A DNA stretch of 42,623 nucleotides from a virus. Shown here piece by piece: positions 5,326-42,197 of the stretch (the stretch's first letter is position 1; each line of letters starts with the position of its first letter). The stretch lies in the IMG/VR virus record IMGVR_UViG_3300005253_000389, positions 1 to 42,623 of that record, one strand, 5' to 3'. The notes below the pieces were generated by a model, which searched no databases, was not told where the DNA came from, and worked only from the letters and a program-made list of their open reading frames with translations. A program made the translations under genes and the position numbers.

Positions 5326-5700
5326 ATGAGTGGTTACGCAAATAGACGAGCAGAAAAATGTTCTCAATGGAAAGGTGGACGTAGCAAAACGAGTGAAGGC
5401 TATATTAAGGCAACGCTTAAACCAGAGGATGACTTTTTCCGTCCAATGTGCTGGCACCAAGGTCATTGGTACGCAGTTTTGGAACATCGCCTTGTAATGG
5501 CAAAATATTTGGGTAGATGTTTGCTTCCCACAGAGCGTGTACACCATTTGAACGGCGTTAAAGATGATAATAGGATTGGGAATTTGCAATTGCTTTCTGC
5601 TCAGAAACAACATAAAAATTTACACCCCTCAATTGTTTGCCCGCATTGCCAAAAACAGTTTGTTTTAGTGAATGGCAATCCTATACAAACATTCATTTAG
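5326..5700 (+). CDS. HNH homing-endonuclease-like protein, inserted among tail genes
   Basis: A 124-aa free-standing HNH protein on the strand opposite to its neighbours. The HNH core runs LEHRLVMAKYLG (52-63), VHHLNGVKDDN (72-82, metal/general-base His-His), NRIGNLQLL (82-90) and HKNLH (96-100). The tail holds CPHC (105-108), half of a possible zinc finger. It carries its own promoter and its stop overlaps the stop of the 619-aa gene by 4 bases. Orientation, autonomous promoter and intergenic position fit a selfish endonuclease that cuts phage genomes lacking it. Catalysis is not demonstrated. Confidence 0.9.
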   Translation: MSGYANRRAEKCSQWKGGRSKTSEGYIKATLKPEDDFFRPMCWHQGHWYAVLEHRLVMAKYLGRCLLPTERVHHLNGVKDDNRIGNLQLLSAQKQHKNLHPSIVCPHCQKQFVLVNGNPIQTFI

Positions 5701-14323: not shown

Positions 14324-14791
14324 ATGTCAAGCATACACTACCGTAACCATAACTCTACCGTAGAAGAACGCTTTTGGAGCAAGGTTGATAAAGACTCATC
14401 TCTGAACGGGTGTTGGTTATGGACTGCTTATGTCGATAAAGATGGATATGGGAGTTTCTGTATAGGCAATCGCAAAATGAGGAGAGCCCATAGATTTTCC
14501 TACGAATTACTTGTATCACAGATTCCCCCACAATTTGTTATTGACCATCTTTGTAAAACACATGGTTGTGTTAATCCTTCCCATATGAGATTAGTTACAA
14601 CCTCCGAAAACGTATATTCCGGGGATAGCCTTTGGGCAGTCAATAAGCGTAAAACTCATTGTAAGAGAGGCCATCCATTAAATGGTGGGAACCTCTACCT
14701 GCGCCATCGTGGCAACCGTACCGAACGTCACTGTCGCACCTGTAGAAATGATTGGATGGTTCAACATCGTGCTCTGATACATTCTGCCTAA
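14324..14791 (+). CDS. HNH homing-endonuclease-like protein between capsid and scaffold
   Basis: 155 aa, opposite in strand to the late genes around it. It begins with RFWSKVDKDSSLNGCWLW, then GYGSFCIGNRKMRRAHRFSY, the nuclease core FVIDHLCKTHGCVNPSHMRL (71-90) with VTTSENV, and a C-terminal zinc motif THCKRGHPL with CRTC. This is the same type as the HNH gene at 36820 (shared FW.KV, GCW.W, DHLC, CVNP.H, KTHC..GHP). Three ATGs occur in a row at 14316, 14320 and 14324; only the last is in frame. Insertion between scaffold and capsid genes, a highly conserved target, is typical of homing endonucleases. Confidence 0.92.
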   Translation: MSSIHYRNHNSTVEERFWSKVDKDSSLNGCWLWTAYVDKDGYGSFCIGNRKMRRAHRFSYELLVSQIPPQFVIDHLCKTHGCVNPSHMRLVTTSENVYSGDSLWAVNKRKTHCKRGHPLNGGNLYLRHRGNRTERHCRTCRNDWMVQHRALIHSA

Positions 14792-36440: not shown

Positions 36441-36842
36441 TTATGTTCTTATCTTCCTCCATCCTTTATCAAACATGTTTTGCTCAACGTCTTTAGTAGT
36501 AAAACGTTCCCAAATAGGTTCATGCTGATAATTAGGCAAACTCTGGTCAGGATCTAACTCTACATAGTTCTGATAGTGTGAGACAGTCTTGGCATCTTGG
36601 GCTTTGAGTCTTTCTTCTAAAATAGAATGGGGATTACTATGATAAGCTCCTGCTTCTTTTATTTCATCTTCAGTCAGCAATCTCCCCTCATCAGGCTTTG
36701 GTTCAAATGGTTGTTTATTTGTTTGACAATATGGGTTATCACACTTAAACTCATAACGAAAGGGTTTATGTTTTTTCAAATGGATATTACCGCTACTACA
36801 AGCTGGACACTGTATCTTCTTATCCCCAATATTTATTTCCAT
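36441..36842 (-). CDS. Zinc-ribbon protein with LLTEDEI segment (133 aa)
   Basis: N-terminal knuckle IQCPACSSGNIHLKKH then CDNPYCQTNKQPFEPK. Then RLLTEDEIKEAGAYHSNPHS and LEERLKAQDAKTVSHY; a related RPLTDEEI appears in the gene at 37627. The C-terminal 30 residues (FTTKDVEQNMFDKGWRKIR) are a helix. The start overlaps the end of the HNH gene by 23 bases. Function unknown. Confidence 0.7.
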   Translation of the reverse strand: MEINIGDKKIQCPACSSGNIHLKKHKPFRYEFKCDNPYCQTNKQPFEPKPDEGRLLTEDEIKEAGAYHSNPHSILEERLKAQDAKTVSHYQNYVELDPDQSLPNYQHEPIWERFTTKDVEQNMFDKGWRKIRT

Positions 36843-37263
36843 TTTCCCTCCACCAATTTCTCATTGTATTAGAGCGACAGATTTTACAATCCCTGGACCC
36901 GCCATTAGGTTTTATATATGTGTTCACCTCGTCATAGGGGTGCCCATGTGGGCAGTGGGTCTTTGCTAATTGATTCGCTCTTGCTATACTCGGCCCGATA
37001 CCCCTTGCCGTGTTCTGGCTTCTTGTAACAACCTCTAAATGGTTGGGGTTGACACACCTCTTTACCCTGCAAAGATGGTCTAACTCAAAGCCAAAAGGAA
37101 CTGCTCCATTGACGCTCTCAAACAAGAAACGATGTGCCACTTGTTGTCTTGAACCATTCCAAAACACACCATATCCATTGGAGGGCTTCCCCCATATCCA
37201 ACAACCATCTTCAGTGTAGGTTACCTTAGCCCAAAATCGTTCCATAACCCCAGTCTCAGTCAT
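36820..37263 (-). CDS. HNH endonuclease, co-directional in the replication operon (147 aa)
   Basis: Same type as the gene at 14324: RFWAKVTYTEDGCWIWGKPS, GYGVFWNGSRQQVAHRFLFE, nuclease core FELDHLCRVKRCVNPNHLEV (59-78), VTRSQNTARG and THCPHGHPYDEVNTY, then CKICRS. No separate promoter: it starts on a strong AAAGGAGGTG within the preceding gene's end, and its last codons carry the ribosome site of the next gene. It appears well domesticated in the operon. Confidence 0.9.
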   Translation of the reverse strand: MTETGVMERFWAKVTYTEDGCWIWGKPSNGYGVFWNGSRQQVAHRFLFESVNGAVPFGFELDHLCRVKRCVNPNHLEVVTRSQNTARGIGPSIARANQLAKTHCPHGHPYDEVNTYIKPNGGSRDCKICRSNTMRNWWRENGNKYWG

Positions 37264-40478: not shown

Positions 40479-40794
40479 TACTTTTAAGCCACCTTAGAGT
40501 TAGTTTATTTATCCTCTTGTAGCCCTTCGGCTTTCCCAACCACTGCCACATTTCGAGAGCATTGTTAAAGCCATCTACTACAGCCTCATATTCGGTAATA
40601 TCCCAAACCTTGAGAAACTCCTTCTCTTTGATGCGAGCAACCCCTAATATTTCTCGCTCTTTACTTCTAGGCTTGTAGACAATTTGGACATTCTCCCCTG
40701 CCAACCAATCCCTATCTTTTCTAGTGAAACGGAAAGTAGTAAATTCTATATCGTTCAGTTTCGGCCACTTCTTACTGAATCCTAGTATTCTCAC
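40471..40794 (-). CDS. ASCH/PUA-like protein (107 aa)
   Basis: MRILGFSKKWPKLNDIEFTT, FRFTRKDRDWLAGENVQIVY, KPRSKEREILGVARIKEKEF fits the beta-barrel of ASCH domains (F.KKW.KL, TT.R, GD-type turn, VQIVYKPRS). ASCH/PUA proteins bind RNA or modified nucleotides. It overlaps the Gp37 gene by 4 bases, a pairing often seen in phages, so the two may act together. Confidence 0.8.
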   Translation of the reverse strand: MRILGFSKKWPKLNDIEFTTFRFTRKDRDWLAGENVQIVYKPRSKEREILGVARIKEKEFLKVWDITEYEAVVDGFNNALEMWQWLGKPKGYKRINKLTLRWLKSNG

Positions 40795-41666
40795 TCCGGC
40801 ATCTCCTGCCTTAAAATGTCATGGTAGTTCTTGCGTGTCGCCCATTGTGGTATCTGGTTACTACCATCATTCGTCTTGTTATACCAGAGTCCGTATAGAT
40901 TATTCTTCAAGAACACTGGTATCCCCGCCTTATCACAGGCTTCGACTATCTCCTTAATATCTGAAATCTCGGGTGGTCGGTAAGGTTTTGTCTGACTACC
41001 AATGATTACTTGTCTTATGTGGGCGTCATAGAGTAATCTTCTGAGTAGAGTATCTACCCCGAAGGTATCCCAATCTAGTAGAGGTTCAAGGCTGAGATAT
41101 TTGACAGTGGCATCTATGCTTCTCAGATACTTACAAGCGTCAATTAGCATAAGGGTATCAGTTACACTCACTCCCACCCAGCAGTTATCAGGGAAGGGGC
41201 TGAACTTGATGAGGTTCTGCGGTTGCTTGGTCAGGAGATAGAAGCGGTCTTTGGGATAGGCGTTATTCTGAGCAATACAGTCAAGGACTTCGGTTGTCCA
41301 CGCCTCAGGCACTCCGATACCAAAGAGGTCTGACATATCACAGACGAAGATACCCTTGTGCTTATGCTCAACTCCCACCATCGCCCTGTCTCTCATCTGT
41401 TTAATCCTATCTTCCCAGAATCGGGGATAGAAGGGGTTTAGATAATCGCCATCAATTCTTACCACTCCATCGTTAGCTGTTTCGCAAAGACCTTTGGCGG
41501 AAGGGGCTAGATTATGATTGTTGATATAGACACCCCAAAGCCTGGTATTAGCCAGCTTCCTAGCGTAGCAGTAGGGACAACCATTCAGACAGCCGGTGAT
41601 TGGATTCCAAGTGTAGCCTTGACTACCATCAGGATTCTTTACCCATTCAATTTTTGTAGCGTTAAT
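40791..41666 (-). CDS. Gp37/Gp68 family (PF07505-type) protein with CxxxCxxC; apparent AUU start
   Basis: The frame is open well upstream of the first GTG (41465). The missing part holds conserved residues TKIEWVKNPDGSQGYTWNPI and TGCLNGCPYCYARK (C26, C30, C33: a radical-SAM-like cysteine triad), so the gene must start earlier. The only start-like codon after the in-frame TGA is ATT at 41666, which overlaps the HNH stop as ATTAA and has AAGGAAGGTGA upstream. With it the N-terminus I/M-NATKIEW matches the HNH N-terminus MNKTKIEL. Later: FVCDMSDLFG, FYLLTKQPQNL, YLSLEPLLDWD, QVIIGSQTKPYRP. Function of the family is unknown. Confidence 0.8.
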   Translation of the reverse strand: MNATKIEWVKNPDGSQGYTWNPITGCLNGCPYCYARKLANTRLWGVYINNHNLAPSAKGLCETANDGVVRIDGDYLNPFYPRFWEDRIKQMRDRAMVGVEHKHKGIFVCDMSDLFGIGVPEAWTTEVLDCIAQNNAYPKDRFYLLTKQPQNLIKFSPFPDNCWVGVSVTDTLMLIDACKYLRSIDATVKYLSLEPLLDWDTFGVDTLLRRLLYDAHIRQVIIGSQTKPYRPPEISDIKEIVEACDKAGIPVFLKNNLYGLWYNKTNDGSNQIPQWATRKNYHDILRQEMPE

Positions 41667-42039
41667 GTTTCACCTTCCTTTTCCTCTTTAGCCTTTGCCA
41701 AGAGGTATGTCTCTTATGACAATTTTCACAAACCGCTAATCCATTATCAATCTCAAAGACACCTTCAGGGTAATCAATAATTGACCGTATATGGTGAGCA
41801 TCTACCTTTTCAGTTCTCCCACAATCTTGGCAAGTATGGTTATCTCTTTCTAAAACTGCTTTCCGCCATTGATAAAATTCAGGCGACCTACGAATACCCT
41901 TTACTAGCTCTGTTAAACCACCCTTCCAATTAGCGTTCTTGCTTCCTTGTCTAGCTAAAGACATTTTTAACTTCGTTTCAGCAGAAGCCTTATTTCCTTC
42001 CATAGGACTAAAAGTCAATTCTATTTTTGTTTTGTTCAT
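41662..42039 (-). CDS. HNH endonuclease inserted at the 5' end of the Gp37/Gp68 gene (125 aa)
   Basis: I start at 42039 (MNKTKIELTFSPMEGNKASA) after GGTGGGGAG. The HNH domain reads RKAVLERDNHTCQDCGRTEK, VDAHHIRSIIDYPEGVFEID, NGLAVCENCHKRH: C70, C73, H82, H83, N99, C104, C107, H108. The N-terminal seven residues are those expected of the Gp37/Gp68 protein, not of an HNH, and the same codons reappear (diverged) just after its stop. It seems to have captured the start of the gene it invaded. Possibly still mobile. Confidence 0.88.
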   Translation of the reverse strand: MNKTKIELTFSPMEGNKASAETKLKMSLARQGSKNANWKGGLTELVKGIRRSPEFYQWRKAVLERDNHTCQDCGRTEKVDAHHIRSIIDYPEGVFEIDNGLAVCENCHKRHTSWQRLKRKRKVKH

Positions 42040-42197
42040 TCGCTTAACTCCCCACCTTTGGGCTTGCTGGCTCGGTTTTTTACTAGCCTGTCTAGTTGTA
42101 GGCAGTGGCACCCTTAAGATACGACACTTCTAGCCTCGCAGCTTTGGATTACCGATATACAGGACACCAGCAAACCCAATCGTCAGTAGATAAACTG

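Follow-up and report, generated by a model that had tools for sequence, protein, structure and literature searches.

An HNH endonuclease gene that appears to have taken over the start of a phage DUF5131 gene, which is now probably translated from an AUU codon

The data support the view that, in the window (the whole 42,623-nt stretch of viral DNA analysed), an HNH endonuclease gene has taken over the start of a DUF5131 (Gp37/Gp68) gene. The HNH gene has a chimaeric start; the DUF5131 frame behind it has no canonical start at the usual place, is preceded by a Shine–Dalgarno (SD) sequence and encodes an intact protein, and the arrangement recurs in other phages. The best explanation, to which we give a probability of about two in three, is homing of the HNH gene into the 5' end of DUF5131, with the HNH taking the ribosome binding site, the ATG and seven codons of the recipient, and DUF5131 now being translated from AUU. 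Homing as the cause and the order of events are what we infer from these observations. The features are all on the minus strand.

40791..41666, minus strand: DUF5131 (Gp37/Gp68) ORF, 291 aa from the ATT (PF07505, E=2.4e-31)
41662..42039, minus strand: HNH endonuclease ORF, 125 aa (PF01844, E=1.6e-6)
41664..41666, minus strand: proposed AUU start of DUF5131, in the place of ATG/GTG in 34/34 HNH-free relatives, with an in-frame TGA two codons upstream
41667..41686, minus strand: SD-like stretch GAGGAAAAGGAAGGTGAAAC in the Lys/Arg tail codons of the HNH gene (anti-SD duplex -9.1 kcal/mol)
42018..42039, minus strand: putative captured DUF5131 start ATGAACAAAACAAAAATAGAAT (MNKTKIE), now the first HNH codons (profile score; 19/21 nt with L004, L005 and L031; breakpoint common to L011)
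42040..42060, minus strand: leader with SD GGGGAG (anti-SD duplex -8.0 kcal/mol) upstream of the ATG at 42039

The HNH ORF runs from the ATG at 42039 to the TAA at 41664-41662 and encodes a protein, MNKTKIEL...KRKRKVKH, whose nuclease domain scores 28.6 bits against PF01844 (cut-off 21.4). The NUMOD3 copy is truncated and scores 17.5 bits, below the cut-off of 20.4, with 41.2 bits for the sibling in L071. The siblings share 76% (L039/L017) and 64% (L071; range 57-64%) identity with the window HNH and are 169 and 172 aa long; the N-terminus of the window protein is shorter, the N-terminal NUMOD3 region appears to be lost and the break directly precedes PM[EK]G. The DUF5131 frame reads TGA(41672) AAC ATT(41666) AAC GCT ACA AAA ATT GAA TGG, and its ATT overlaps the HNH stop TAA by one base (ATTAA). 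The motif CLNGCPYC (CxxxCxxC) is located near the N-terminus (41591-41568). The next in-frame ATG, GTG or TTG is the GTG at 41465, and starting there would remove CLNGCPYC. The sequence-only reading had described the MNKTKIEL start of the HNH protein, the ATT frame, the TGA two codons upstream, the ATTAA overlap and the GTG at 41465, and all of these statements are borne out.

Over their first 24 nt, the HNH and DUF5131 frames agree at 18 positions. On a profile built from 21 DUF5131 starts, the HNH start scores 27.9 bits, within the family range (mean 29.5), in agreement with the earlier claim that the HNH gene took a DUF5131 start. Among 16,135 ORF starts scored in the window and the fetched loci, only DUF5131 starts, the window HNH and one unrelated ORF (L037:6366, 23.3 bits) exceed 17 bits; the next, L011:2432 (16.9 bits), is itself a DUF5131 remnant. 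An 18-nt AT-rich motif is found elsewhere by chance too (L059/L041), and since nucleotide matches of this length arise by chance, the argument rests on the start codon, the SD and the position beside DUF5131. Over nucleotides 4-24, the upstream copy matches the HNH-free L004, L005 and L031 at 19/21 positions, as compared to 16/21 for its own downstream copy. The two had been described as diverged copies of the same first codons; both are indeed DUF5131 starts, but not a simple duplicate. As the upstream copy is closer to HNH-free alleles than to the downstream copy, the two probably derive from two alleles rather than from one duplicated start, by a margin of three bases. The leader at 42040..42060 probably once served the DUF5131 gene of the recipient and now serves the HNH gene. 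The usual N-[KR] at codons 2-3 is present in 18/21 HNH-free DUF5131 genes versus 0/5 HNH-associated ones (Fisher p=8.5e-4); replacement of DUF5131 codons 1-3 by the insert would be consistent with this.

Viral DUF5131 loci numbered 37, of which 34 were counted as HNH-free at the junction (including L011 and L023, which carry other HNH genes), with L001, L017 and one near-duplicate set aside. All 34 have ATG or GTG at the position of the window ATT or at most two codons from it. The relatives were checked for a natural start at the GTG of 41465, and none of the 34 starts at that place; they start at the MNxTKIEW position, a result in favour of the sequence-only reading. The usual ATG/GTG before N-x-T-K-I-E-W is absent from the DUF5131 gene of the window, which has ATT, a feature of gene layout that does not define the family. 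A search through the downstream neighbour gene found no close relative without the insert, and the empty site in this lineage was not seen. No phage DNA in GenBank matched the window.

The ATT stands at the exact family start position, in support of the sequence-only reading, and its SD has family-like strength and lies at the proper distance and homologous position. The anti-SD energy of the ATT (-9.1 kcal/mol) is close to the family mean (-9.3); random background gives -2.5, and GTG 41465, at -2.4, has no SD. Random synonymous recoding of the HNH tails reaches the observed SD strength with p=0.063 for the window, 0.039 for L017 and 0.030 for L071 (combined p for the three tails 0.004). These values are suggestive of selection on the SD in the HNH tail, but Lys/Arg codons are purine-rich and give SD-like sequence by default. 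AUU is the start codon of infC in Escherichia coli and Bacillus subtilis, where a strong SD precedes it (PMC1805508), and overlapping stop/start pairs beside homing endonuclease genes (HEGs) have been interpreted as coupling (PMC2988022). DUF5131 is probably translated from the rare AUU; its initiation would be coupled to HNH termination, and its output may be lowered. A programmed +1 frameshift at CAT TAA C, as in prfB, was rejected by reasoning, as the slip of tRNA-His from CAU to AUU would pair badly. The protein retains 50/51 near-invariant DUF5131 columns (one Trp is replaced by Gln), which speaks against long disuse.

A scan of the viral collection with the junction pattern returned exactly three contigs. 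In L039/L017 (one contig), the frame of the 169-aa HNH overlaps DUF5131 by 28 nt, and DUF5131 starts with GTG behind GGGAGG. In L071, the 172-aa HNH precedes a DUF5131 that belongs to another subtype, and ATC occupies the start position, preceded by AGGAGG (-12.0 kcal/mol); the only canonical alternatives are a TTG and a GTG about 50 nt upstream, both without SD, and ATC would be the best start. In L001, the HNH is reduced to its last ~21 residues, fused in frame with DUF5131 (MTKCEDCHNRHTFWQRLKRKRKVKL-NATKIEW); the fusion begins with an ATG that has a good SD. A NinG-like gene (L001:2566-2925) is found in place of the HNH body, directly upstream of this ghost. The HNH is thus sporadic at the start junction, present in the window, L017 and L071 (ghost in L001) and missing from the other DUF5131 loci. 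The 5' remnant is absent in L017 and L071, and the left junction therefore differs between cases. Near-cognate or missing starts occur in 3/4 genes with the HNH or its ghost versus 0/34 without (Fisher p=4.7e-4), a comparison made after the window ATT had been seen and with an HNH-bearing group of four. The same HNH or junction was not found in bacterial genomes, and of the 29 stretches recovered with a pattern around the junction DNA, none matched DUF5131 or HNH.

Four other explanations of the junction were weighed. The two genes could be ordinary neighbours, with the HNH gene merely upstream, MNKTKIEL coincidental and DUF5131 using another start. Phage genes are often abutted by HNH genes, and a few unrelated phage ORFs also begin with MNKTKIEL. 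However, when 2.9 million viral contigs were scanned for MN/SK/RTKIE starts without a following W, there were just 16 matches. Seven are ordinary DUF5131 genes in which Y or S replaces W, one is the L011 remnant, and the other eight either are unrelated or have no DUF5131 detected in their vicinity. In the window and in L011, such a start directly precedes DUF5131 with an HNH gene interposed, and the HNH occupies the same position in four phages, which makes simple neighbourhood very improbable. The MNKTKIEL-stop of L104 and the MNKTTIQW of L037 were taken as chance matches. A one-base assembly or sequencing error, hiding either truly fused HNH–DUF5131 frames or a DUF5131 start at a nearby upstream GTG in the same line, which L001 would permit, is an unlikely but more serious alternative. 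A single wrong base could create or abolish the ATT, and L001 differs at the junction by exactly one base (GAAACTTAAC versus GAAACATTAAC): its AAGGTGAAACTTAACGCT, in frame with DUF5131, is one base shorter than AAGGTGAAACATTAACGCT of the window. The upstream GTG also has a moderate SD (-6.2). Against an error, the extra A lies outside any homopolymer, the window HNH otherwise ends cleanly at TAA, and L071 independently has no plausible canonical start at the same position.

Recent loss of function, in which the insertion removed the DUF5131 start and the ORF survives for lack of time, is possible, yet we do not favour it and think it unlikely. It would account for the missing canonical start, for the loss of the Cys motif from any protein begun at GTG 41465 and for the replaced Trp. 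The 290 open codons, the near-invariant residues retained, an SD at family level and a similar state in the distant lineage L071 all argue against it. A group I intron, an intein or translational bypass, any of which would take the insert out of the RNA or the protein and leave the original ATG in use, seems more improbable still. Joining ...ATAGAAT to GGGTAAAG would restore MNKTKIEWVKNP, the two GAAT copies permit a joint in family sequence, and both left breakpoints end in U. But the insert is filled by an HNH ORF with its own stop, and in L017 and L071 a 5' piece for splicing is missing. Group I and II introns were rejected, with no Rfam match at gathering level and no intron family at E<=1. 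An intein was likewise rejected, as Pfam gave no intein domain and the HNH frame ends in TAA, separate from the DUF5131 frame.

Other HNH genes have entered DUF5131. In L011 (IMGVR_UViG_3300033150_000806), a DUF5131 gene beginning with ATGCAAAAGACATCT behind GGGGG has a remnant, ATGAGCAAAACAAAAATTGAATTA (MSKTKIE), 560 nt upstream of it, and the stretch between the remnant and the re-supplied start (L011:2432-2992) contains an HNH_3 gene (PF13392) in antisense orientation. The remnants of the window and L011 both depart from the family after GAAT (GAAT|T versus GAATGG in the family). The HNH_3 is unrelated to the window HNH, and we take L011 as an independent insertion. In L023:2998-4563 (IMGVR_UViG_3300005253_000282), a NUMOD3/HNH gene splits DUF5131 mid-gene, and the second half has an SD and an ATG overlapping the HNH 3' end. 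In L029:2992-4040, DUF5131 is apparently in two frames (103 aa, then an ORF with the rest), by frameshift or decay. The window phage has at least four HNH genes. At 36820-37263 (HNH_3) and 36441-36842 (minus strand), the end of the HNH_3 gene and the ATG of the gene that follows overlap by 23 nt, and the SD GGTGGAGG lies within the HNH_3 codons; the layout is as in L017/L071, with the ATG retained. Two more HNH_3 genes, at 5326-5697 and 14324-14788 (both plus strand), lie on the strand opposite to their neighbours.

AU tests reject monophyly of the HNH-linked DUF5131 genes, both for the set of four rows (p=9.9e-7) and for the three that have the subtype of the window (p=0.018); the free DUF5131 tree is weakly resolved. 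The junction has therefore arisen or moved repeatedly, and the HNH appears to have become linked to different DUF5131 lineages at one and the same position, whether through homing or through recombination across the conserved start. The earlier reading, borne out in large part, is extended by this: the window event is one of several at the site (L017, L071, L001 and L011), and on sequence comparison the DUF5131 gene start is a recurrent landing site for related and independent insertions. Sliding identity revealed no clear co-conversion tract beyond about codon 10, as the whole family is conserved there.

In the simplest history under homing into the DUF5131 5' end, a free-standing HNH homing-type endonuclease would have moved there as part of a donor HNH–DUF5131 unit entering the DUF5131 gene of a recipient phage. 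The left junction would be illegitimate, linking a point within the NUMOD3 region of the HNH to recipient codon 8 (...ATA GAA T|). The HNH gene would then use the recipient SD and ATG and carry seven foreign codons. The right junction would lie inside the donor DUF5131, with the sequence resuming at about codons 2-4 of a second, donor-type allele without its ATG. The donor-type NATKIEW is common to the window and the HNH-ghost phage L001. Translation of DUF5131 would begin at the near-cognate AUU that occupies the former start position, with its SD embedded in the HNH tail codons, and the initiating ribosomes would probably be those ending at the overlapping HNH TAA.

Insertions of HEGs into phage genes and non-AUG starts are each already known. 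A recurrent swap of the start to a near-cognate codon, with an SD from the invader, would be a simple route for tying mobile endonucleases to a host gene. More tentatively, and with considerable doubt, these HNH genes may constitute a recurrent 'start-capture' class whose homing target is the conserved first codons of DUF5131; they would remove the start and re-supply one, making the host gene dependent on the endonuclease. If so, the re-supply from the HNH 3' end would consist of an SD in the Lys/Arg tail codons and a weak start (AUU, AUC or GUG), and the translational dependence of the host gene would make clean loss of the invader costly. For annotation, a gene caller restricted to ATG, GTG and TTG would start DUF5131 at GTG 41465 and lose the Cys motif.

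Phage genes that are split by or coupled to an inserted HEG are an established finding (PMC2988022). The MobE and MobA insertions (Aeh1 nrdA and T4 gene 60; PMC2988022) resemble the window in having a free-standing HNH gene in an open, presumably functional host gene. There, the gene is split in two in its interior, whereas in the window only the first codons are lost, the HNH takes the start and the host gene restarts at AUU. The UAAUGA of T4 nrdA–mobE (PMC2988022) shows the same one-base stop/start overlap, suggesting reinitiation, but the endonuclease is downstream, throttled and begins with AUG; in the window, the endonuclease is upstream and the host gene downstream with AUU. As in infC (PMC1805508), AUU follows a strong SD, although the infC AUU is ancient and conserved, while that of the window follows an insertion and lies in the tail of the invading gene. 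The ShiLan element, which hides an HNH within a phage methylase gene (PMC11855218), is not an intron or an intein and has similar residues in element and flank, as does the window; its host frame is open through the insert, in contrast to the separate host and HNH frames here. L023 also has an HNH gene, with NUMOD3, in DUF5131, and the downstream DUF5131 part receives an SD and an ATG that overlap the HNH 3' end, but the insertion is mid-gene and leaves two real pieces.
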